A stretch of 64,000 nt of DNA from Clostridium sp. (GTDB taxonomy: Bacteria > Bacillota > Clostridia > Lachnospirales > Lachnospiraceae). The notes beneath the pieces were generated by a model. It was not told the DNA's origin and did no database searches. It worked only from the letters and a program-made list of their open reading frames with translations. A program made the translations under genes and the position numbers. Below are positions 16,988-64,000 of the stretch, piece by piece; position 1 is the stretch's first letter; each line of letters starts with the position of its first letter. The DNA lies in assembly GCA_023664775.1 (NCBI GenBank), contig JAMPEW010000006.1:1-64000 (forward strand), in the 5' to 3' direction.

Positions 16988-18310
16988 TTAATTATTTTTA
17001 TTAACACTGGCTTTAATATCCTGAAGGGCTATGTTCTTCTCCCCTGCAATACGCTTTAAATCCTCATATTCAGGCTTTATTTTTTTTGCCCCATACCCCT
17101 CTGATACCTTTACGTTCACATCACCATATTCGGTGTGAACAACCTCGCTGTGCCGTTCCATAATCATTCGTTTCTTTTCCGTATAGCGTATGCCTATAGT
17201 TGTTGTATGCTTAAATATAATTTCTGCAAGCTTTTCTCTATCTAGTGGTTTACATAACACTCCAAGCATAATGCCTGTCCTTCCCTTTTTTGCAGTGATT
17301 GGAATTGTGTAAACATCCTTTGCCCCGCTCTCCATAAGAAGCTCTGTAACGTATCCGATTTCCTCTCCTGTAATATCATCCAAATTACAGTTCATTTCCA
17401 CAATGATATCTTTATCATTATTATTTTTATTATTAGCTTTGTTTATTTCCTCTGCTTGAATACCGCCCTTCCCCAAGGCTGCGGACTCTCCCAATACAGC
17501 CCTTACAACATTGGCGGCAGCAAAATCCTTGCTTCCCGTGCCATAGCCTATATTGTCTATTTTCATAAACGGCATGCCGCAAAACTGGTTTACATAATTT
17601 CCAACAAGAGCTGCTCCCGTAGGAGTACAAAGCTCTCCCTCAATGCTTCCACTGTAGCATGGAATACCAGATAAAAGCAGTGCTGTAGCTGGTGCAGGAA
17701 CTGGCAATATTCCATGTGCGCATTTTACCTGTCCGTAACCTGTATTTATGGAGGACGCAGCAATTTCATCCACGTCAAGCATTTCAAAAAGCATGGCACA
17801 GCCTGTAATGTCTGCCATGGCATCCATCGTTCCCACCTCATGGAAGTGTATATCTGCAATCTCCGTTCCATGAACCCTGCTTTCCGCATCTGCGATCCGC
17901 TTATACACGTTTTTTACTTCACGCTTTACACTGTCTAAAACGCTTAAGTTGTTTATAATGTCAGTAATATCGGACATGGAAGCGTGATGATGCTCGTGCT
18001 TATTGTGGTGTTCATGCTCATCGTGGTGCTTGTGTTCATGCTCATCATGGTGCATGTGCTCGTGTTCATCGTGGTGTCCATGAATATCCTCACTCACCTC
18101 AGTTTTTCCGTTTATGCTTACCTCCACATGCTTTCCTACAATACCGCATTTTTTATCATCAACAATGTTTACGGTTACACCGGGTATGCCTGCATCATTA
18201 AGCGTCCTCAAAAACTCCTGCTGCTTGTTCTCATCAAGCAATGAGACAAGTGCACCCATAAGCATATCCCCTGCAACACCCATGCCAAAATCCAAATATA
18301 GTATTTTCAT
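16988..18310 (-). CDS. larC: LarC, nickel insertion enzyme for the nickel-pincer nucleotide cofactor
   Basis: 440 residues. LarC inserts nickel into pyridinium-3,5-bisthiocarboxylate mononucleotide in a CTP-dependent reaction. Conserved parts are MKILYLDFGMGVAGDMLMGAL, HFHEVGTMDAMADITG, PVPAPATALLL and GELCTPTGAAL, then the C-terminal domain from IIVEMNCNLDDITGEEIGY to KIKPEYEDL. Residues 77-109 hold 18 histidines in an 8-residue repeat (HEHxHHDE-like, 24-base DNA repeats near 18005-18075), a likely nickel store. A linker rich in Asn/Lys (about 275-295) joins the two domains. In some lactobacilli they are encoded as LarC1/LarC2 with a frameshift; here the frame is continuous. Confidence 0.93.
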   Translation of the reverse strand: MKILYLDFGMGVAGDMLMGALVSLLDENKQQEFLRTLNDAGIPGVTVNIVDDKKCGIVGKHVEVSINGKTEVSEDIHGHHDEHEHMHHDEHEHKHHDEHEHHNKHEHHHASMSDITDIINNLSVLDSVKREVKNVYKRIADAESRVHGTEIADIHFHEVGTMDAMADITGCAMLFEMLDVDEIAASSINTGYGQVKCAHGILPVPAPATALLLSGIPCYSGSIEGELCTPTGAALVGNYVNQFCGMPFMKIDNIGYGTGSKDFAAANVVRAVLGESAALGKGGIQAEEINKANNKNNNDKDIIVEMNCNLDDITGEEIGYVTELLMESGAKDVYTIPITAKKGRTGIMLGVLCKPLDREKLAEIIFKHTTTIGIRYTEKKRMIMERHSEVVHTEYGDVNVKVSEGYGAKKIKPEYEDLKRIAGEKNIALQDIKASVNKNN

Positions 18311-18423
18311 TTTTCTTCTCCTCGTTCAATTCTGGCAGTGCCTTTTTCCTTTGCAATGTTTTTTCATACATCACCTGACACTATTCCAATTCCAAGTTTA
18401 CTTTCAGCAAATGCCTTAACATA

Positions 18424-19209
18424 TCATACATGATTTATCATGCTTGCCTGATAGCCTGCACCAAATCCATTGTCAATATTGACAACGCTTACTCCGCTTG
18501 CACAGGAATTCAGCATGGAAAGAAGTGCAGAAAGTCCGCCAAAATTAGCACCATACCCCACACTCGTAGGCACAGCGATAACAGGACACGAAACAAGACC
18601 GCCTACAACACTTGCAAGCGCCCCCTCCATGCCTGCAATGGCAATGACAACGCTTGCACGCATAAGTGTATCAAGATGTGCAAAAAGCCTATGTATGCCC
18701 GCAACACCAACATCATAGATACGCTCAACCTTATTTCCAAGCGCTTCTGCCGTGAGAGCCGCCTCCTCTGCAACAGGCATATCGCTTGTACCTCCCGTTA
18801 CAACGGCAATGGTTCCATGTCCCGACGGTGTTGGAAAATCGCCAATTACACAAGTACCGGAAAGCTTTTCATAAAAGGCATGCAATGCTTCATCGCCCGA
18901 TACGCACGCAGTAAGCTTATCCTTTAAATATAAATATGCCTCCCTGCTTATCCTTGTAATAAGCACTGTTTTCTGTCCCGCCTCAATCAGCTTTTCTACA
19001 ATGACCAAAAGCTGCTCCTTTGTCTTTCCTGCTCCATATATAACCTCTGCCGCCCCTTGTCTTATCCTTCTATGGGTATCAAGCTTTGCAAAATCCAAAT
19101 CAACATAAGGCTCCATTTTAAGCTTCAGCATGATTTCTTCCATGGAAAGCCCGCCGTCCTTAAAGCGCATAAGCATTTCTTCAATTGTGTTTTCACTGTA
19201 GTTTTCCAT
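18424..19209 (-). CDS. larB: LarB, nicotinate-adenine-dinucleotide carboxylase/hydrolase for the nickel-pincer cofactor
   Basis: 261 residues. LarB carboxylates C5 of the NaAD pyridinium ring and releases AMP, the first step of nickel-pincer nucleotide synthesis. The C-terminal ~130 residues are PurE-like (VVTGGTSDMPVAEEAALTAEALG, GMEGALASVVGGLVSCPVIAVPTSVGYG). The N-terminal region holds the LarB-type LDTHRRIRQGAAEVIYGAGKTKEQ. The SD AGAGGT is 6 bases from the ATG. It is first in an operon with larC (113-base gap), nikMN, nikQ and nikO. LarE (sulfur donor) and the apo-enzyme LarA are absent from the window. Confidence 0.93.
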   Translation of the reverse strand: MENYSENTIEEMLMRFKDGGLSMEEIMLKLKMEPYVDLDFAKLDTHRRIRQGAAEVIYGAGKTKEQLLVIVEKLIEAGQKTVLITRISREAYLYLKDKLTACVSGDEALHAFYEKLSGTCVIGDFPTPSGHGTIAVVTGGTSDMPVAEEAALTAEALGNKVERIYDVGVAGIHRLFAHLDTLMRASVVIAIAGMEGALASVVGGLVSCPVIAVPTSVGYGANFGGLSALLSMLNSCASGVSVVNIDNGFGAGYQASMINHV

Positions 19210-19243
19210 GTTATACCTCTATTCAAAAAATCCCTTACATGTC

Positions 19244-19272
19244 ATTATACTTGCAAAGACAAGTACTTGCAA
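19244..19272 (-). promoter_or_regulatory. SigA-type promoter of the lar-nik operon with repeated TTGCAAG half-sites
   Basis: Minus strand: -35 TTGCAA (19267-19272), 17-base spacer, -10 TATAAT (19244-19249). TTGCAAG occurs twice, once at the -35 and once just upstream of the -10. CAAGTACTTG is a perfect 10-base palindrome beginning inside the -35. This is consistent with a repressor site for metal- or lactate-responsive control, but the regulator is unknown. Confidence 0.65.
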
Positions 19273-19312
19273 TCATTTTTAAAACACATCGACAGCGTAC
19301 CTTGTTAAATTT

Positions 19313-22309
19313 TTATACATCCTTCCCAGCATGATATGCCTCACACTCCTTGATGTGCTCCTCATACAGTGCATGATGCCCGAATATTCGAAGTGCCTGC
19401 CGATAACACGCAATCGCCTTTTCGTACTCCTGCATACATCTGTAAATCTCTCCCTTTTCGCACCACATTTCATGGTACCCTGCAAAACAGCTTATCCGAT
19501 CCCGTTTTGTCTCAATTGCCTTACTGACAGCAGCCAATGCTTCCTCATACTTCCCTGTGGCACGATAAAACTCCGCCAGCTTCGCATTTTTAAAATGTAT
19601 GTTCCTGTCGTCAATGCCCTCAAGCTGAACGGCAGCAAGCTCCATATAATGTTGGTATTTCGGCTTCGTTATATCATCCATCCTACCAGCGGCAAACAGA
19701 TACAACGCACTGATGAAAACATCATTTTCCTTGTCAAGCTCCAATGCCTTCTCATACATTTTCATCGCTTCCTCGTACATTCCATGTTCTGAGTATACCA
19801 TACCCATGCATCTGTATATGTGGCAGTCTGTTTTATCATTCTCAACCGCCATCTCAAAAATCCTATAGGCGTCCTCAATATACCCTTCATTCCCGTAAAA
19901 ACAGCAGAGATCTCCGATACAGGACTGCACAAGCGATGCATTTTTGCTGCGCTGCTCCTCCGATATACTGTATTTTCTGTCCTTATCGCCACTGAAGGAA
20001 ATGCCGCCCATATATTTTTGGGCAAGGTCTGCATAACCCAGCTCACAGATACATTTTTTTATAAGCCTTGCGCAGTCCTGCAAATGATTCATTCTGACAA
20101 GAAGCTCCGCATGATTCAACACATAGGAAAGAGAATCATCATCGAAGCCAAATTCCTCCTCACAGGCTTCATACACCTGTTTTGCACCCACATAATCCCC
20201 CATACAGGACAAATTTGCCGCTTTTCTGCAATACGCGCGTTTTTTATATCCCATATTCTTTGTCAGCCCGATAATTTTATCATGCAGGGAAACAGCCTCG
20301 TCAAACCGTTCAGTAAAATAGTACGCTGACGCAATACTGTTTAACACCCACAAATTTTCAGGAGCCTCCTTCAAAGCCTCCCCATAATAATATAATGCCT
20401 TCTCATACTCCTCCATATCACTAAAATTGGCGCCAATCAGCGTATAAAGGGAAAACCAATCGTCCTCCTCCAAATCCGTCTCGTCCGTTCCCCTTTTACT
20501 GCACAGTGGAAGCAGTAATTCATTGGACGCAGCGTAATCCTCCTCATGCGCCAGCAGCCTTGCACGGGAAATATCAATCAAATCACTATTCCCCTTCAAG
20601 TCGTCAAATCGTGCAATCACAGTTTTCATATCATCATAATAATCAAATTCCCAATAAATTCCAAGCTCGATGGCATACGGCGCTGAAGCGTACGGATAAA
20701 GCCCCATCGCATGCTCACATGCATCTATGGCACGACTGTATTCCCCAAGCCTGTCACAGCTTTTTGCCATATACATATATGCATCATAATCTTCCTTTTG
20801 TGCAAGCAGCGTCTCACACGCCAAAATACAGGCATCATAATTTGCACATAAATACTCCAAACGGCACATTGCCTCCTGTGCATATGTATAAAAGTCAGAT
20901 TCATCGGACAGCGCCTCCTCCAAATATTTTCTTGCATCATCATACTGCTTTGTCCTGATATAACAGTCCGCAATAAAATAATTCACCCGATCATACCGCA
21001 GCTTTTCTTTTATTTCCTTTGCATTACCACCCTGTGCTATCGCTACGTCTACATCATCCTTCCACACAAAAAATTGCGCCAATGCTTTCTCGTACTCCCC
21101 TATATATAAGTAATTTCGTCCAAGCAAATCCTGATATTCGCATTTTTTATCATCAGTCGGCGCAAAGGACTCCAATACATTTATCGCTTCAGGAAATACG
21201 TTATTTCTGTAATAACACCATGCCAACTGAAATTTCAGTTCATTATCCTCCGGTTTTTCTGCAAGCTCCTCCTTCAGTTTTTTTATAAGCGCCTCATTCG
21301 CCCTTACCATGCGGTTATATGTTGTTGCATCATAGCCGTTATGCACCAAAAGCTCCACAAAAATGGCTTTGGACTTTTCATACTCCCCGATGGCATAATA
21401 ATAATCACCCAATCTCACATTTGCGTCATAGTTATCCGTCTCCTGCTCCTGTGCCATTTTATAATACCTGCCTGCATCATCATACGCCGACCTTGCAAAT
21501 GCAAAATCACCACAGGCAAGCATAATACAAGTCTCATTCTTATATGCTTCAAGCAATGCCTCCGCCTGTTCCTGCATTTCGGAAAGCCTTACGGCATACC
21601 GTTCTGCCCGCTCAGCCTGACTATCCACACTCTCGTTTATCTTGTGAAACTCATGGCGAAGCTTGCTAATCTCAAAATACGGGTGGTAAATTCCGATTTT
21701 TTCCACGGCATCAATATACTGCTTTTCTTCTTCAGTATCTGCCCTTCTCAGCGCCATATCAAGCCGATAATACATGCGGATAAATTCATCTACATCATCG
21801 GTAACAGTATCAAAAAGCCCATAGTTAATAATGTCCTTGTATTTTGCATTACTTAATATATGCTCAATAAATCCTTCAGGATAAGCTTCTAACAGCTCAC
21901 CTTTTATTTCATCTATATGAAAGGTTTTCACGATGAGCTGATACACTGTATGCGGAACATAGCTATGCTCCATCAAGAAGGAGAGAAACCTATGCATCGA
22001 CGCATCGGAAGTATCTAACGCAACAAACGCATCCCTGTCAAATATCCTTCTCCACTCCTCCACATCAATTCTTCTCTTGAAATCGGCATAGAGCTTTGCC
22101 ATGTCATAAACCAAACCCTTTTCCTCTGGCTGTTCCTTTGCGGGTTCTTCCTCCGTTTCCCGTAAAGCTTCCTCATATGCGTTTCTAAGCTCCATAAAAT
22201 TTTCGGCGTCATCCTCAGGATTCACATGAACCAGCCTGCTTCTGTACGCTTCCTTTATAATTTCCTTATCCTTTGTCTTATCAATTCCGAGAATTTTCCA
22301 CTTATCCAT
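19313..22309 (-). CDS. Very large J-domain-like TPR protein (DjlB/DjlC-like co-chaperone candidate)
   Basis: 998 residues. The N-terminal ~60 residues have J-domain layout: MDKWKILGIDKTKDKEIIKEAYRSRL then ENFMELRNAYEEAL. The HPD loop reads Asn-Pro-Glu-Asp, lacking the His and Asp needed to stimulate Hsp70 ATPase in classical J proteins. From about residue 230 to the end there are many TPR-like helical pairs (for example DNYDANVRLGDYYYAIGEYEKSKAIF and YRCMGMVYSEHGMYEEAMKMYEKAL). The last ~280 residues are clearly paralogous to the TPR gene coupled to hscC at 63-64 kb. The start is ATG 22309 with GGAGG 5 bases upstream, rather than the TTG at 22321. No signal peptide, so cytosolic. It is probably monocistronic; a TATAAT lies near 22400 on the minus strand without a good -35. 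Confidence 0.82.
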   Translation of the reverse strand: MDKWKILGIDKTKDKEIIKEAYRSRLVHVNPEDDAENFMELRNAYEEALRETEEEPAKEQPEEKGLVYDMAKLYADFKRRIDVEEWRRIFDRDAFVALDTSDASMHRFLSFLMEHSYVPHTVYQLIVKTFHIDEIKGELLEAYPEGFIEHILSNAKYKDIINYGLFDTVTDDVDEFIRMYYRLDMALRRADTEEEKQYIDAVEKIGIYHPYFEISKLRHEFHKINESVDSQAERAERYAVRLSEMQEQAEALLEAYKNETCIMLACGDFAFARSAYDDAGRYYKMAQEQETDNYDANVRLGDYYYAIGEYEKSKAIFVELLVHNGYDATTYNRMVRANEALIKKLKEELAEKPEDNELKFQLAWCYYRNNVFPEAINVLESFAPTDDKKCEYQDLLGRNYLYIGEYEKALAQFFVWKDDVDVAIAQGGNAKEIKEKLRYDRVNYFIADCYIRTKQYDDARKYLEEALSDESDFYTYAQEAMCRLEYLCANYDACILACETLLAQKEDYDAYMYMAKSCDRLGEYSRAIDACEHAMGLYPYASAPYAIELGIYWEFDYYDDMKTVIARFDDLKGNSDLIDISRARLLAHEEDYAASNELLLPLCSKRGTDETDLEEDDWFSLYTLIGANFSDMEEYEKALYYYGEALKEAPENLWVLNSIASAYYFTERFDEAVSLHDKIIGLTKNMGYKKRAYCRKAANLSCMGDYVGAKQVYEACEEEFGFDDDSLSYVLNHAELLVRMNHLQDCARLIKKCICELGYADLAQKYMGGISFSGDKDRKYSISEEQRSKNASLVQSCIGDLCCFYGNEGYIEDAYRIFEMAVENDKTDCHIYRCMGMVYSEHGMYEEAMKMYEKALELDKENDVFISALYLFAAGRMDDITKPKYQHYMELAAVQLEGIDDRNIHFKNAKLAEFYRATGKYEEALAAVSKAIETKRDRISCFAGYHEMWCEKGEIYRCMQEYEKAIACYRQALRIFGHHALYEEHIKECEAYHAGKDV

Positions 22310-22502
22310 TGCTTCCTCCAAATTTTACAATGCTGTTTATAGCAGCCAAAGCACCAGGCATGATGCCCTATGACTAATTTTCTTCATAGAGAAATTATAC
22401 TGTATTCAGGCATAAAGTTCCATAAAAATATAGGGAAAATCTAAGAAATGACACAAGGGCTAATTTGCCTGACAATGTATCTTGATGACAATAATAAAAT
22501 TT

Positions 22503-22536
22503 GGGCTGCCGCAGTAAGGATTTAAGCGACAGCCCC
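22503..22536 (-). terminator. Terminator hairpin of the iscS-iscU transcript (GGGCTGYCGC family)
   Basis: On the minus strand GGGCTGTCGC and GCGGCAGCCC pair over 10 bp (one G-U) around a 13-base loop, followed by AAATTTTATT. It lies about 30 bases past the iscU stop. The arms match the dispersed palindromic family also seen at 25.0, 37.9 and 56.6 kb. The rest of 22310-22566 shows no gene. Confidence 0.7.
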
Positions 22537-22566
22537 TTCAAATACCAATTATAACCAGTGAAAGAT

Positions 22567-23031
22567 TTAGGCTTCCTCTCCCATTGCATAAAATTCTTCC
22601 GTCTCGTCAATGTCCTTTACGGGAGGCTTTAAGCCTTCTATCTTAATATTATTTTTCTCAGCATAATCCCAAAGTGCGGCATGTATTGCCTCCTCCGCAA
22701 GCAGGGAGCAGTGAACCTTTACAGGCGGAAGTCCTCCTAATGCCTCCATAACCGCCTTGTTTGTAACCTCAAGCGCCTCCTGTATGGTCTTGCCCTTTAC
22801 AAGCTCAGTTGCCATGCTGCTTGTGGCAACAGCGGCGCCACAGCCAAAGGTTTTAAACTTCGCCTCGGTTATTATGCCGTTTTCATCCACGTCAATATAC
22901 ATTCTCATAATGTCTCCACATTTTGCATTTCCCACTGTGCCTACACCGCTTGGGTTTTCTATTTCTCCAACATTTCTTGGATTTGTAAAATGATCCATGA
23001 CCTTTTCGCTATATTCAGTAACCTGACTCAT
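22567..23031 (-). CDS. iscU: Iron-sulfur cluster assembly scaffold IscU/NifU
   Basis: 154 residues. The scaffold on which IscS-derived sulfur and iron form [2Fe-2S] clusters. Three conserved cysteines sit in NAKCGDIMRMY, KTFGCGAAVATSS and VHCSLLAEEAI, with the Asp next to the first Cys. The last ~25 residues (GLKPPVKDIDETEEFYAMGEEA) are an acidic extension common in clostridial NifU-like scaffolds. It follows iscS by 16 bases with SD GGAGG; the pair is a minimal ISC system without hscBA or ferredoxin genes nearby. Confidence 0.95.
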   Translation of the reverse strand: MSQVTEYSEKVMDHFTNPRNVGEIENPSGVGTVGNAKCGDIMRMYIDVDENGIITEAKFKTFGCGAAVATSSMATELVKGKTIQEALEVTNKAVMEALGGLPPVKVHCSLLAEEAIHAALWDYAEKNNIKIEGLKPPVKDIDETEEFYAMGEEA

Positions 23032-23047
23032 CTTTTCGTACCTCCGC

Positions 23048-24232
23048 TTAATTCTTATTTGACCTTACAAAATCTTCATATAAAGGCGACATGCTTCTAA
23101 GTCTCTCCACTATTTCCTTAAGCCTGTCAACAACAAAATCCATTTCTTCCTTTGTGTTTTCATCTGAAAGGGTAAGTCTCAACGACCCGTGGGCTATCTC
23201 ATGCGGCAGTCCGATTGCAAGAAGCACATGTGACGGATCCAGCGAGCCTGACGTACATGCCGAGCCGCTTGACCCACAAATTCCGTTTCGGTCAAGCATA
23301 ATCAGCAGCGACTCTCCCTCAATAAACTGAAAGCTGAAGTTTGCGTTGTTTGAAAGTCTTTCATTTCTATGTCCGTTTACCTTAGTGTAAGGTATCTCAT
23401 TTTCCACCCTGCTTATAAGATAATCCCGAAGCTTTGTCTCATAAGCCATACGCTCCTTCATTTTTCTTTCTGCAAGCTCTGTAGCCTTTGCAAAGCCTAT
23501 GATACCAGGGGTATTGTGCGTACCTGCCCGCCTATTTTTTTCCTGTGCGCCGCCATGAATCAGCGGGGTTATTTTTACATTTTTTCTAATGTACATAATG
23601 CCAATTCCCTTTGGCCCATTGATTTTATGTCCACTTGCGGAAAGCATGTCAATGTTCATTTCATTAACATTGATAGGCACATGACCGTATGCCTGTACTG
23701 CATCCGTGTGGAAAAGCACGCCATGTCTTTTTGCCAATTCTCCTATTTCCTTAATTGGCTCTATTGTACCTATTTCATTGTTTGCAAACATAATGGATAT
23801 CAGTATTGTCTCAGGCTTTATCGCAGCCTCAAGCTCATCCAGCTTAACAACTCCGTTTTCGTCTACGTCAACATATGTTATTTCATATCCATTTTTTTCG
23901 AGAAATTCACAGGTGTGTAAAACCGCATGGTGCTCTATCTTCGACGTAATGATATGGTTTCCCTTTGATTTATTTGCCAAAGCAACACCCTTAAGCGCCC
24001 AATTATCAGACTCGCTTCCGCCGCCTGTAAAATATATTTCCCCAGACTCTGCACCTATGAAATCTGCAACTGTCTTTCGTGCCTTATCAACCTCATTATT
24101 TATCTTGCCTGCAAATGTGTATACACTGGCAGGATTTCCGTAGCTCTCCTCAAAATACGGATGCATAGCCTCATATACTTCCTTATCCACCTTTGTTGTA
24201 GCGGCATTATCCAAATATATAAATTCTTTCAT
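23048..24232 (-). CDS. iscS: Cysteine desulfurase IscS/NifS
   Basis: 394 residues. PLP enzyme that moves sulfur from cysteine to the scaffold. It shows IYLDNAATTKVDKEVYEAM, the PLP-Lys region LSASGHKINGPKGIGIMYIRK, HGGAQEKNRRAGTHNTPGIIGF and the active-site Cys loop GICGSSGSACTSGSLDPSHVLLAIG. A 30-residue upstream in-frame extension reaches through the promoter region and is rejected: ATG 24232 has AGGAGG 8 bases upstream. It is first gene of iscS-iscU, with a near-consensus promoter. Confidence 0.96.
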   Translation of the reverse strand: MKEFIYLDNAATTKVDKEVYEAMHPYFEESYGNPASVYTFAGKINNEVDKARKTVADFIGAESGEIYFTGGGSESDNWALKGVALANKSKGNHIITSKIEHHAVLHTCEFLEKNGYEITYVDVDENGVVKLDELEAAIKPETILISIMFANNEIGTIEPIKEIGELAKRHGVLFHTDAVQAYGHVPINVNEMNIDMLSASGHKINGPKGIGIMYIRKNVKITPLIHGGAQEKNRRAGTHNTPGIIGFAKATELAERKMKERMAYETKLRDYLISRVENEIPYTKVNGHRNERLSNNANFSFQFIEGESLLIMLDRNGICGSSGSACTSGSLDPSHVLLAIGLPHEIAHGSLRLTLSDENTKEEMDFVVDRLKEIVERLRSMSPLYEDFVRSNKN

Positions 24233-24260
24233 CCATGTTTCCTCCTGTACAACAATATAG

Positions 24261-24309
24261 TATACCAATCTAACAATTGTAGTATAAGCCACGCATTTCC
24301 TTATGTCAA
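24261..24309 (-). promoter_or_regulatory. Promoter of iscS-iscU with possible Rrf2-type (IscR-like) operator
   Basis: Minus strand: -35 TTGACA (24304-24309), exactly 17 bases, -10 TATACT (24281-24286). An inverted repeat TATAC-N16-GTATA (24261-24286) runs from the -10 downstream, where a repressor would block transcription. Rrf2-family regulators such as IscR commonly control such operons; the link is inference. Confidence 0.7.
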
Positions 24310-24356
24310 CGAATATAGGCAATTACAAATTGATAGAATTTCTCAAAAAGAAGGCT

Positions 24357-24893
24357 CTAATAATTTTCTGCCTTAATTTCAAAATATCCCTGCGAATGTT
24401 TACATACAGGACAAATACCGGGAGCCTCCAGTCCCACTACAATATGTCCACAATTTCTGCACTCCCAAATCTTAACCTCACTTCTTGCAAACACCTGTGC
24501 CATTTCAATGTTGTTTATAAGGGCACGATAGCGTTCCTCATGATGCTTTTCAATTGCCGCCACCATCCTGAACATATGCGCAAGCTCCTTAAAGCCTTCC
24601 TCCTCCGCAGTCTTTGCAAAGCCGTCATACATATCTGTCCACTCATAATTTTCCCCCTCAGCAGCAGACTCAAGGTTTGCCTTTGTATCGCTTATTCCGT
24701 CAAGCTCCTTAAACCATAGCTTGGCATGCTCCCTCTCATTTTCTGCCGTTTCAAGGAATATTTCAGCCATTTGCTCATAGCCTTCCTTTTGTGCCACCGC
24801 GGCAAAATAAGTATATTTACATCTTGCCTGTGACTCCCCCGCAAATGCAGCCTTTAAATTCTCATACGTTTTCGTTCCATCATATTTACCCAT
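24357..24893 (-). CDS. rbr: Rubrerythrin
   Basis: 178 residues, close to the usual ~190. Peroxide-reducing di-iron protein of anaerobes. The four-helix di-iron domain has Glu in [16 protein letters not shown] and [10 protein letters not shown] (E-x-x-H motifs). The C-terminal rubredoxin domain binds one Fe via CRNCG and CPVCKH. The SD AGGAGG precedes the ATG by about nine bases. It stands alone between the iscS promoter region and the palindromic element at 24965-25069, and fits oxidative-stress protection of the neighbouring Fe-S assembly genes. Confidence 0.96.
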
Positions 24894-60814: not shown

Positions 60815-61465
60815 CTATGCGTCATTGAGACGCATAATTTGAATCGCCAGTGCTATATGCTCCATCCCAAGTATTCGCATATGTGGATAAAGCTTCGTTA
60901 CAGGGTCAATCAAAAGCAACAGTGCAAGCGTAATTTGCAGAATTGTCTGCAGCATATCTGCAACCCATTTTTTCTTGTGGGTAAGATTATAAATGGTAAC
61001 ATTCAGGCTTTCCGTCCCCTCAATTAAACCAAATATGCCCCATATAACCCCAATTAAACCATCAGCCCGGTTTCCATGTACAATAATGGAAATACCGATT
61101 ACAATCAAAAGAATGCCCGCAGAGGAAAGCTTTGTGTCCAGCCTTTTATATTCCTTGGTTATTATGGCACAAAAAAGGGAGCTGACACCGATTGCAATCA
61201 TAAGGCTTCCCATCGTATATGGCAGAACCTTATAAATAAAATCAACAAAAAACAGGCACAAAAAACCAACAATCAATAATATGCCAACAATAATATATCC
61301 AATTCTTTTACTTAAAGGCGTACCAAATACATGCCGACTGTAAAATTTCCATGTGGACATATCCGTTTCCAGCTCCTGCACTGCCTGTCCCTGATAAAAC
61401 GGAGCATACCCCAAATCGGAAGGGGAATCCGTATACAGCTTTTCATTCTTTTCTTTCCCTGCCAT
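60815..61465 (-). CDS. DUF308 (HdeD-like) membrane protein
   Basis: 216 residues. Soluble N-terminus (~1-50), then about six membrane helices in the DUF308 pattern: GYIIVGILLIVGFLCLFF, YTMGSLMIAIGVSSLFCAII, AGILLIVIGISIIVHG, GLIGVIWGIFGLIEG, a KKKW-flanked loop and ILQITLALLLLIDP. The ATG at 61465 has GGAGAG 5 bases upstream; the GTG at 61471 overlaps it. Function unknown. The stop is one base from the stop of the convergent gene. Confidence 0.82.
   Translation of the reverse strand: MAGKEKNEKLYTDSPSDLGYAPFYQGQAVQELETDMSTWKFYSRHVFGTPLSKRIGYIIVGILLIVGFLCLFFVDFIYKVLPYTMGSLMIAIGVSSLFCAIITKEYKRLDTKLSSAGILLIVIGISIIVHGNRADGLIGVIWGIFGLIEGTESLNVTIYNLTHKKKWVADMLQTILQITLALLLLIDPVTKLYPHMRILGMEHIALAIQIMRLNDA
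60817..60835. terminator. Small hairpin at the convergent gene ends
   Basis: ATGCGTC-ATTGA-GACGCAT, a perfect 7-bp stem overlapping the last codons of the minus-strand gene. No strong U-tract on either side (AATTTG follows on the plus strand). A weak shared terminator is possible. Confidence 0.4.
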
Positions 61466-61553
61466 CAACACTCTCCAAAAAATGCTTATCCCTTATTATG
61501 TGCGCAAACCGGCTGCATATGCATAAGAAACATATTTTTGTGAAGCATATACC

Positions 61554-63248
61554 CTATATGATATCTTCCTCAATGCTATCTAAAAATTCTTTAAATTCTT
61601 TTCTTGCGCTTTCAATCTTAAGCTTGTCCTGTTTGTCAAGAATTTCCTCAAAGGCATTCATCTGCAATTCAATAATGTGCCTTGTATCTCCCGTTGCCTC
61701 CTCATACATGCGGTCACCACGCAAAAGCAGCAGCTTATTTTCCTCCTGCTCTCTCGGATGTATCTTTAAGGACGCTAAGGATTCAAGCCTTGCAGCGATT
61801 TCCTCGTCGCTCATATCCGTATCTTCATTTTTTATGACGACACGCTTTGATATTTTTGTTGATAATACCTTAACCTCAACCTCCAAAATAGCGTTCACGT
61901 CATAGGTATAGGTCACGTCAACTGCCTCTTTCCCTGCCGGGCCAATTGGCACAGGCACCTCTAACTCGCCTAAATATACGTTGTTTCTTGCATACCTGCT
62001 CTCTCCCTGAAGGATTTTGACAAGTATGTGGCTTTGATTGTCAGAAGCTGTATAAAGACGTTCTGTCCTGCTCACAGGTATTACCGTATTTCTTTCTATG
62101 ATAGGCAGATAATGACCGTTTTCCTTGTAGCCGCCGCTTCTTGTGACAACAATGTCCGTTCCAAGGGTAAACGGACATACATCCGTAAGAATTATCTCCT
62201 TTACTGCCTCGTCCCGCTCCTTCATGGCTGCCTGTGTCGCTGCACCCACAGCAACAACCTCGTCAGGATTTATGCTTGTGTTGGGAAGCCTGCCGAAAAG
62301 ACGGCTTACAAACCTTCTGACAATGGATAACTTTGTGGCGCCTCCTACCAATATAACCTCCTCAATATCAGCAAGCTTTATCTGAGCGTCCTTAAGACTT
62401 CTCTCTATCGGTTTTTTTATCTTGCCAAGCAAAAGCTGGCAGGACTTTTCATAGTCGTCTATGTTTATCTCGTACTCATATTTTTCCTCGCCTATCCTGC
62501 ATTTAAACACGGAGGTTCTGCTTTCCTCAAAGCCAAGCTTACATAGCTCTGCCTGCTTTCTTATATGGGCAAGTGTTTTTGCATCAAGCTCATCCTGGTC
62601 TATTTCCTTTTCCCTGAAAAACATCTGCTCAAGAACCTCTGTAAAGTCCTCTCCTCCAAGATAGTTGTCGCCTGCAACTGCACGAACCTCCATAATATTT
62701 TGATACAGCTCAAGTATTGATACGTCAAATGTACCGCCGCCCAAATCAAAAACAAGGAATTTGGTATCTGCATTTTTCTTGTTTAAGCCATAGGCAATCG
62801 CAGCAGCAGTCGGCTCACTGACAATACGCTCAACTACAAAGCCTGCCATTTCTCCTGCCTTCTTTGTAGCCTTTCTCTGTGCATCATTAAAATAGGCTGG
62901 AACGCTGATAACAGCCTCTGTTACCTCATGTCCAAAAAACGCCTCCGCATCCTCCTTCAGGGATTTTATAACAAGGCTTGATAATTCTTCTGCCGTAAAT
63001 TCCCTTTCGCCAAGCATGAACTTTTTGCCTGTTCCCATGCTTCTCTTAAAGACAGAGGCAGTCTGAGACGGGTTTGTCATACCTCGCTCCCTTGCGGTCT
63101 TTCCTACATAAACCACACCTTCGTCATCCACGCTTACGACAGAAGGCGTAAGCATTTCTCCCAGCTTATTCGGTATAACCTTAGCCTCATCCTTATCAAA
63201 ATATGCAATTAAACTGTTTGTTGTTCCAAGGTCGATTCCTACTATCAT
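61554..63248 (-). CDS. hscC: Hsp70-family chaperone, HscC type
   Basis: 564 residues, the length of HscC (DnaK is ~610-640). The ATPase domain is intact: [61 protein letters not shown] and [17 protein letters not shown]. The substrate-binding domain (about 365-500) shows [14 protein letters not shown] and [34 protein letters not shown] reduced helical lid ends without the EEVD-like DnaK tail. The ATG overlaps the upstream TPR gene stop by 4 bases (ATGA). E. coli HscC is likewise linked to J-domain proteins (DjlB/DjlC). Confidence 0.9.
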
Positions 63249-64000
63249 TTATTCTCAATCCTTTTTAGTTTTTCTTCTATGACAGCATTATGTCCAAATA
63301 TGCTTAACGCTTTTTTGTAACACATTTTTGCCATTTCATAGTCCTTCATCTGTTCATAAACAAGTGCCTTTTCATACCATAGCTCATGACATTCGCCATA
63401 GAAACAGCCCTCACATCTCAGGTGCTTCAAGCCCTCATCTGCTATGGCTACAGCCTGTTTTGCTTTTTTTGTAACCCTGTAAAGCCTCGCCATTTTAACA
63501 TAGTCCAAAGGCGTGTGCATTTTCTCCTTTGGAATTGTGGCACGTTCAAGGTAAACTCTTATGTCCGGCTTGAATAATGTTTTTTTGCTTAAAATAGTTT
63601 CTATCAAACTACTATAATAATTTGCTTTATTGTTGATGTCAAGCTTTACAGCCTTCTCAAAATGCTTCCGCGCATCCTCCATGAGACCATGATCCTTAAA
63701 AACATCTCCCATGCTTACATATGCCCTCTTATCATCTCCCTGCTTGCTTATGGCAAGCTTAAAGCTTTCATGCGCCTTGTCTATATAGCCCTCCAAGCCA
63801 TATACATAGCAGAGCTGTCTTATGCACATCTGTATGTCCTCATCGTATGGCAGCTCATCGATGCATTTCCTAAGCACCTTAACGGAATCCTCCATTCTTC
63901 CCATTCGGAGTAAAAGCTCCGAATAGTCGTACATGACATCGGCATTTAATCCAAATATTTCAAGGTATTCCTGATATACTGCTTCGCTTTCCTCAAAATG
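63245..64000 (-). CDS. TPR co-chaperone-like protein, cut by right window edge
   Basis: The frame is open to the edge; 251 C-terminal residues are visible. TPR-like repeats throughout ([75 protein letters not shown]). It aligns over its visible length with the C-terminus of the J-like TPR protein at 19313-22309, including the ending pattern W-EK...Y..AL-IFGH-A--EE. Its N-terminus, which might bear a J domain, is outside the window. It overlaps hscC by 4 bases, so the two products are made in step. Confidence 0.85.

Follow-up and report, generated by a model that had tools for sequence, protein, structure and literature searches.

J-like TPR proteins as predicted co-chaperones of an HscC-type Hsp70 in a Lachnospiraceae genome

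The window, the 64,000-nucleotide stretch of Clostridium sp. DNA (contig JAMPEW010000006.1) analyzed here, holds all of one and part of another gene for two long proteins, A and B, each with a J-like N-terminus followed by a TPR-rich region. The gene for B overlaps that of an HscC-type Hsp70, whereas A stands alone, about 40 kb from hscC. From these comparisons we consider it likely that A and B are two J co-chaperones of a specialized HscC, with B acting in cis and A in trans, a J hairpin with the motif NPE docking on the Hsp70, and a TPR array doing the recruiting. HscC is the least understood bacterial Hsp70 of those covered by one review (PMC8215388).

Results

Proteins A and B are full-length paralogues

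The earlier note on this DNA paired the C-terminal ~280 residues of A with the TPR protein at the right edge of the window, and this paralogy was borne out: the C-terminus of A matched the partial protein 63245-63934 with 128 bits (E 5e-38, 33% identity, 260 columns), while the runner-up alignment in the same comparison scored 23 bits. The pairing proved real but too narrow. Reading past the right edge, as had been proposed, gave a complete B of 1033 aa that starts at contig position 66346 and has its own J-like domain with the motif NPE. BLASTP aligned A and B from end to end (33% identity, 1045-1070 columns, 538-580 bits), and this alignment at ~33% identity makes them paralogues over their whole length (Table 1).

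The start codon of A, ATG, is preceded by GGAGG, a good ribosome-binding site. Pfam found six individually significant TPR_2 stretches in A and seven in B, which does not confirm the "15 or more TPRs" proposed previously, and the size of A, which had been called unusual, is the norm for TPR arrays of the J-TPR family. The peak 19-residue hydropathy was 1.0 in A and 0.9 in B, compared with 2.4 in DjlB and 2.0 in DjlC; by this profile, both A and B lack a strongly hydrophobic segment or C-terminal membrane anchor. A phage origin was also considered and was rejected, since only two unannotated records matched, with 34% over about half of the query.

Table 1. Features of the window discussed in the text
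Feature	Positions	Strand	Remarks
J-TPR protein A, 998 aa	19313..22309	minus	ORF 22309..19313; solitary paralogue
Domain order of A			DjlB/DjlC-like J domain ~1-50 (NPE), shared middle domain to ~170-190, TPR-rich region to C-terminus
J-like domain of A	22172..22300	minus	Pfam DnaJ
iscU/A gap	22310..22566	minus	by eye: inverted repeat GGGCTGTCGC...GCGGCAGCCC, then T-rich run; TATAAT box nearer A
rubrerythrin, iscS, iscU, A, larB, larC	16988-24893		order held in two closest relatives
DUF308-like membrane protein gene	60815-61471		3' of hscC; Pfam 24.4 bits, cut-off 25
HscC-type Hsp70, 564 aa	61554..63248	minus	4-nt overlap with B (63245-63248)
J-TPR protein B, C-terminal part in window	63245..64000	minus	gene extends upstream to contig position 66346

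The N-termini of A and B are akin to DjlB and DjlC

In a set of seven sequences, blastp matched A to E. coli DjlB with an E value of 8e-14. A profile built from 44 J-TPR N-termini aligned with DjlB/DjlC at a probability of 99.5% in hhalign (E 2e-23, 165 columns), and when a J profile of 27 rows was compared with the PDB, DnaJ J-domain structures were the top matches. The alignment with DjlB/DjlC and the retrieval of DnaJ structures together argue that A and B share ancestry with the known HscC partners. Judged by these profiles, the N-terminal ~170 residues are homologous to DjlB/DjlC, with a soluble TPR array in the place of the membrane anchor. The prediction of a J-like domain thus held for both proteins, including the second one, on which the idea had been made to depend, but the motif is NPE and not HPD.

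The 16 clade II partners of the family sample (described below) fall into two groups. Eleven of them (335-615 aa) retain a 19-residue hydropathy of at least 1.9, like DjlB/C, and the remaining five (668-1547 aa) have no such hydrophobic segment. The 1547-aa J-like protein (L086:2011-6654) lies beside a clade II HscC and has a DUF1963 domain at its C-terminus. Apart from A and B, the window's assembly, which is without the dnaK region, yielded one J domain, in a 210-aa HPD protein. The protein at L015:4610-5242 (C38), an HPD J-domain protein of 210 aa, has a Cys-rich C-terminus, and a 202-aa HPD J protein was seen near hscC in L048.

The Hsp70 beside B is HscC-like

The window Hsp70 is 40% identical to E. 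coli HscC over 556 residues, and its length is inside the HscC range of 550-580 aa. The deletion in the NBD that corresponds to DnaK 76-101 is present, and its gap aligns with that of E. coli HscC; this feature is weakly diagnostic, since aligned Firmicute DnaK has it as well. The GrpE signature loop is deleted in the alignment. A hand count on the alignment gave an L1,2 insertion of 9 residues in SBD-beta and a helix B deletion of 11 residues; the hallmarks of HscC, according to a review, are an insertion of 4-8 and a deletion of 9 residues (PMC8215388). A FastTree was built from 37 Hsp70s of clade I, 18 of clade II, and a set of references, and was printed without support values; in it, E. 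coli HscC clustered with clade I, and DnaK and HscA fell outside. The clade labels are our own and stand for ~53-100% (clade I) and ~35-47% (clade II) identity to the window HscC in the family sample. This comparison shows that the window Hsp70 is HscC-like by all sequence hallmarks tested. The tails of the HscC proteins are acidic; binding of the TPRs to an EEVD-like Hsp70 tail, as in a TPR clamp, was discarded because these tails have no common terminal motif.

Long J-TPR proteins and clade I HscC occur in the same genomes

A and HscC were used as queries against a 200-genome sample of the family that includes the window's genome, with a minimum completeness of 90. A was matched (E <= 1e-3) in 47 of the 200 genomes, in 35 at 4e-20 or better and in 12 no better than 1.8e-7. 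Because scoring was limited to four candidates in each genome, weak relatives may be missed. An Hsp70 at least 53% identical to the window HscC was found in 35 of the 200, the next best being 47% identical. With thresholds that we placed in these visible score gaps, the genomes holding a long J-TPR protein and those holding a clade I HscC are the same 35. The co-occurrence suggested in the earlier note was thereby found, and, together with the J-like N-terminus of B, it supports the proposed Hsp70/J-TPR system at two distant loci.

The four-base overlap of the second TPR gene with hscC, reported previously, was also confirmed. In the fetched loci, each of the 35 genomes has an hscC preceded on its own strand by a J gene, and the two are directly adjacent in 32, with at most 156 nt between them. 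In G001, G037, and G165, the distance is 2.1-3.5 kb, and the J frame is interrupted in G165. An exact 4-nt overlap was present in 28 of 84 distinct J-before-Hsp70 pairs. Clade II loci mostly show the opposite order, with the Hsp70 first and then the J gene. L079, a clade I locus with an additional hscC of G111, and L084, of clade II, lacked a J gene in the stretches fetched. In-frame stops were noted in the J-TPR genes of G165 (L072) and G615 (G615:C52) and in the hscC of G614 (G614:C40).

The HPD histidine is replaced by asparagine

At the position of the HPD motif, both A and B read NPE and do not match the HPE of DjlB/DjlC. Conservation of the motif was assessed in 44 J-TPR rows from the family sample, which had been picked by likeness to A or by an adjoining HscC and not by motif. 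Asparagine fills the first position in 41 of the 44, with H in two others and R in one; the third position has E in 42 rows, with one D and one V. In L077, a single J-TPR protein with the motif RPD is flanked by two HscC-like Hsp70s of different clades.

An NPE-bearing pattern was also compared with 84,980 species genomes and gave 489 stretches, of which 477 were relatives. The best 80 were retained, and among these are named strains of Eubacterium ruminantium, Tissierella, Clostridium saudiense, and Eisenbergiella. Because this named set was retrieved with NPE in the pattern, its NPE counts are uninformative on the frequency of the motif, and its value is limited to the Hsp70 residues. Alignment A4, biased in the same way in most of its rows, was not used for motif conservation.

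The Hsp70 contacts of canonical J domains are L391 in the linker for His33, P419 for Pro34, and both R167 and Q378 for Asp35 (PMC8215388). Changing the motif to QPD or HPN abolishes activity and ATPase stimulation (PMC13254874, PMC8215388), and HPE, known from DjlB/DjlC, seems to be the sole tolerated replacement according to a 2026 review (PMC13254874). It could be argued from these data that A and B are pseudo-J scaffolds, with a catalytically dead NPE loop, that bind HscC as tethers or inhibitors while the TPR array does the real work; such a role is discussed for Pam16-type J-like proteins (PMC13254874). The loss of activity upon the change of H to Q in the reviewed systems (PMC8215388, PMC13254874) and the clade-wide loss of the histidine are what this explanation has in its favor. 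However, all 44 rows retain the motif proline, and in 43 of 44 the third residue is acidic. This is the pattern expected of a loop that still contacts R167 of HscC, a residue found without exception in the aligned Hsp70s. Moreover, a further DjlB/C-type J protein was not found in the window's incomplete genome. Pam16 and other pseudo-JDPs likewise have a changed HPD in a J-like domain (PMC13254874); here, the changed motif itself shows strong conservation, and J gene and Hsp70 gene are coupled. We regard the scaffold explanation as rather unlikely and favor A and B as working J co-chaperones of HscC.

Serine 170 of the Hsp70 may be permissive for NPE

DnaK N170 is counted among the residues that interact with DnaJ (PMC4022485, PMC4816425). 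Among the 37 clade I Hsp70s, 36 have Ser at residue 170 and one has Ala. Asn is found there in all 18 clade II Hsp70s, in HscC and HscA of E. coli, and in all 13 DnaK sequences. Motif and residue were compared in 54 distinct J/Hsp70 pairs chosen without regard to the motif (48 from the family sample and 6 from a search of the phylum with the J profile). These comprise 29 NPE/Ser, 1 NPV/Ser, 1 NPE/Ala, 1 NPE/Asn, and 4 HPE/Ser pairs and 18 others with Asn; the J gene of L077 touches two Hsp70 genes and was counted with the nearer, clade II one. The 50 named pairs, from which two short Hsp70s and five duplicates had been dropped, comprise 48 NPE/Ser and 2 NPE/Asn.

A strict compensation between Asn in the J motif and Ser170 in the Hsp70 is ruled out by the HPE/Ser and NPE/Asn pairs in these two sets and by an HPE outgroup that has Ser170 on the Hsp70 tree. 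Five changes are needed on that tree for each trait. Since Ser170 is common to the HPE outgroup, it seems to be older than NPE, and at most it may be permissive for NPE. In two Clostridium relatives (L173 and L181), a shorter, 714-aa J protein with NPE adjoins an HscC with Asn170.

A belongs to a clade of solitary J-TPR proteins

In 7 of the 35 genomes, eight loci in all have a J-TPR gene but no Hsp70 gene in the stretch fetched. A FastTree of 119 J-TPR proteins places A within a clade, with support of 1.0, of 15 rows without an Hsp70 in the fetched flanks; two of these rows are one record, leaving 14 distinct, and several of the flanks are short. Other solitary copies sit elsewhere in the trees. 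On another tree, of the quick kind, six changes are required to explain the solitary label, a number not exceeded in 45 of 500 shuffles. In the window's genus, A was matched in 36 of 37 genomes, many of which have both an A-like and a B-like protein; G151 and G613 are among the members that show B only. HscC was present, at 59-84% identity, in 16 of 16 genomes reached via loci without a neighboring Hsp70, 12 of them of A type; in G602 it is in two pieces, and one non-A locus (L135) ends too early to be called solitary. A-type genes are under purifying selection, with dN/dS values of ~0.06, 0.15, 0.09, and 0.09 in four pairs; as three of the four have a dS above 1, these values are approximate.

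The neighbors of A are conserved no further than its closest kin. Those in the window were named by reading their sequences (rubrerythrin, iscS, iscU, and larC) or by an AIRC match in Pfam (larB). This position raises the question of whether A is outside the HscC system, as a paralogue captured by another process such as Fe-S assembly beside iscS-iscU. The order iscS, iscU, A, larB, larC is indeed held in the two nearest relatives. Against this, iscS-iscU lies beside A only in the window among the 14 A-type loci with nearest neighbors listed, all 12 A-type genomes tested have HscC, and the J sequence of A is still 53% identical to that of B. The repeat and the TATAAT box seen by eye between iscU and A resemble a terminator and a promoter and suggest that A is transcribed separately. 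A scan of positions 22200-22700 gave 4 promoter-like sites against 1.6 expected and did not report a terminator. Capture of A by another process such as Fe-S assembly is thus improbable, and with synteny confined to the two closest relatives, we rejected an Fe-S role for A; A as a second partner of HscC remains our reading.

Discussion

That A and B are generic TPR proteins whose likeness to J domains is accidental is extremely improbable and already disfavored: although their Pfam DnaJ matches are weak, at 19.6-28.6 bits around a cut-off of 27.8 (A scored 28.6 bits in a genome scan and 23.8 bits, under the cut-off, in hmmscan), the accepted J proteins DjlB and DjlC score no better (19.3 and 21.1 bits), and the profile comparisons give both homology to DjlB/DjlC and DnaJ structures.

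In the mechanism that we propose, B would be made from the same operon as HscC, and A, as a stand-alone paralogue, would act on the same HscC in trans. The DjlB/DjlC-type hairpin of both would contact HscC through the NPE loop and stimulate its ATPase, the glutamate meeting R167 of HscC as that of HPE presumably does in DjlB/C. The long TPR array may select, recruit, and hold clients or partner proteins and so do the targeting that the membrane anchor does in E. coli DjlB/DjlC; A and B might then divide this labor. The link of A to HscC would follow from its paralogy to B and its co-occurrence with HscC, the two lines of evidence that bear on it. Four observations count against the mechanism: the change of the HPD histidine to asparagine, the unconserved neighbors of A, the absence of A from genus members that keep B (such as G151 and G613), and the two HscC-like loci (L079 and L084) whose fetched stretch has no J gene. 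A bolder form of the proposal strikes us as evenly poised between true and false. It holds that asparagine has taken the place of the "invariant" HPD histidine throughout a large bacterial J-protein clade, that the members of this clade are still fully active on a dedicated HscC, and that the J-docking site of this HscC was the first to change (N170 to Ser), which would make an insulated Hsp70/J pair.

The closest known system is E. coli HscC with DjlB/DjlC. Both share the hallmarks of HscC, homology of the J domain and the following ~120 residues, a J gene that adjoins hscC, and two paralogous J partners per HscC (PMC8215388). A and B differ in having NPE instead of HPE, no membrane anchor, and a TPR-rich region of ~700 residues; furthermore, B is upstream of and overlaps hscC, and one partner, A, is solitary. 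DnaK-DnaJ has in common a J hairpin, predicted for A and B, with a proline and an acidic residue and the invariant R167, but here NPE stands for HPD, N170 of the Hsp70 has become Ser, and the GrpE loop of the window Hsp70 is deleted. HscA-HscB, which serves Fe-S assembly, is likewise a dedicated Hsp70/J pair, and A adjoins iscS-iscU; however, the window Hsp70 is HscC-type by features and tree, and the neighborhood of A is unconserved. Human DNAJC7 also combines TPRs with a J domain, but its J domain is near the C-terminus, whereas that of A and B is N-terminal, carries NPE, and precedes a far longer TPR region (PMC13254874).

HscC and DjlB/DjlC are already known; a soluble TPR-array partner, a conserved NPE, and a solitary second partner were not met in the literature surveyed. 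This covered titles and abstract openings on HscC/DjlB/DjlC, HPD variants, and J-TPR architectures, from which an NPE J family was absent. The titles listed for HscC together with Lachnospiraceae concern no chaperones.

These data suggest that partners of HscC come in two forms, membrane-anchored and soluble with a TPR array, and point to organisms with two such J partners for a single HscC. The conserved NPE stands against HPE as the only tolerated change (PMC13254874), and the family makes it testable in vitro whether a J protein works without the supposedly essential histidine. Whether deviations from HPD are accidental or selected has been called enigmatic (PMC13254874); if NPE is active, this would be answered for one family. 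An HscC/J pair that ignores DnaK/DnaJ would be useful as an insulated chaperone module.

Some further genes deserve mention. In G000, the window's own assembly, no canonical DnaK or GrpE was found, while two close relatives carry DnaK; its dnaK cluster probably fell in an assembly gap. The DUF308-like gene after hscC is also present in the relative G630. The window has no Hsp20-family gene after hscC. Directly 3' of hscC (2-216 nt), ten loci, 8 of them distinct, hold a member of one small gene family. The member at L044:11123-11515 is an Hsp20/alpha-crystallin protein by Pfam, and those of the other nine loci were grouped with it by blastp; an Hsp20/alpha-crystallin gene in this position points to protein quality control.
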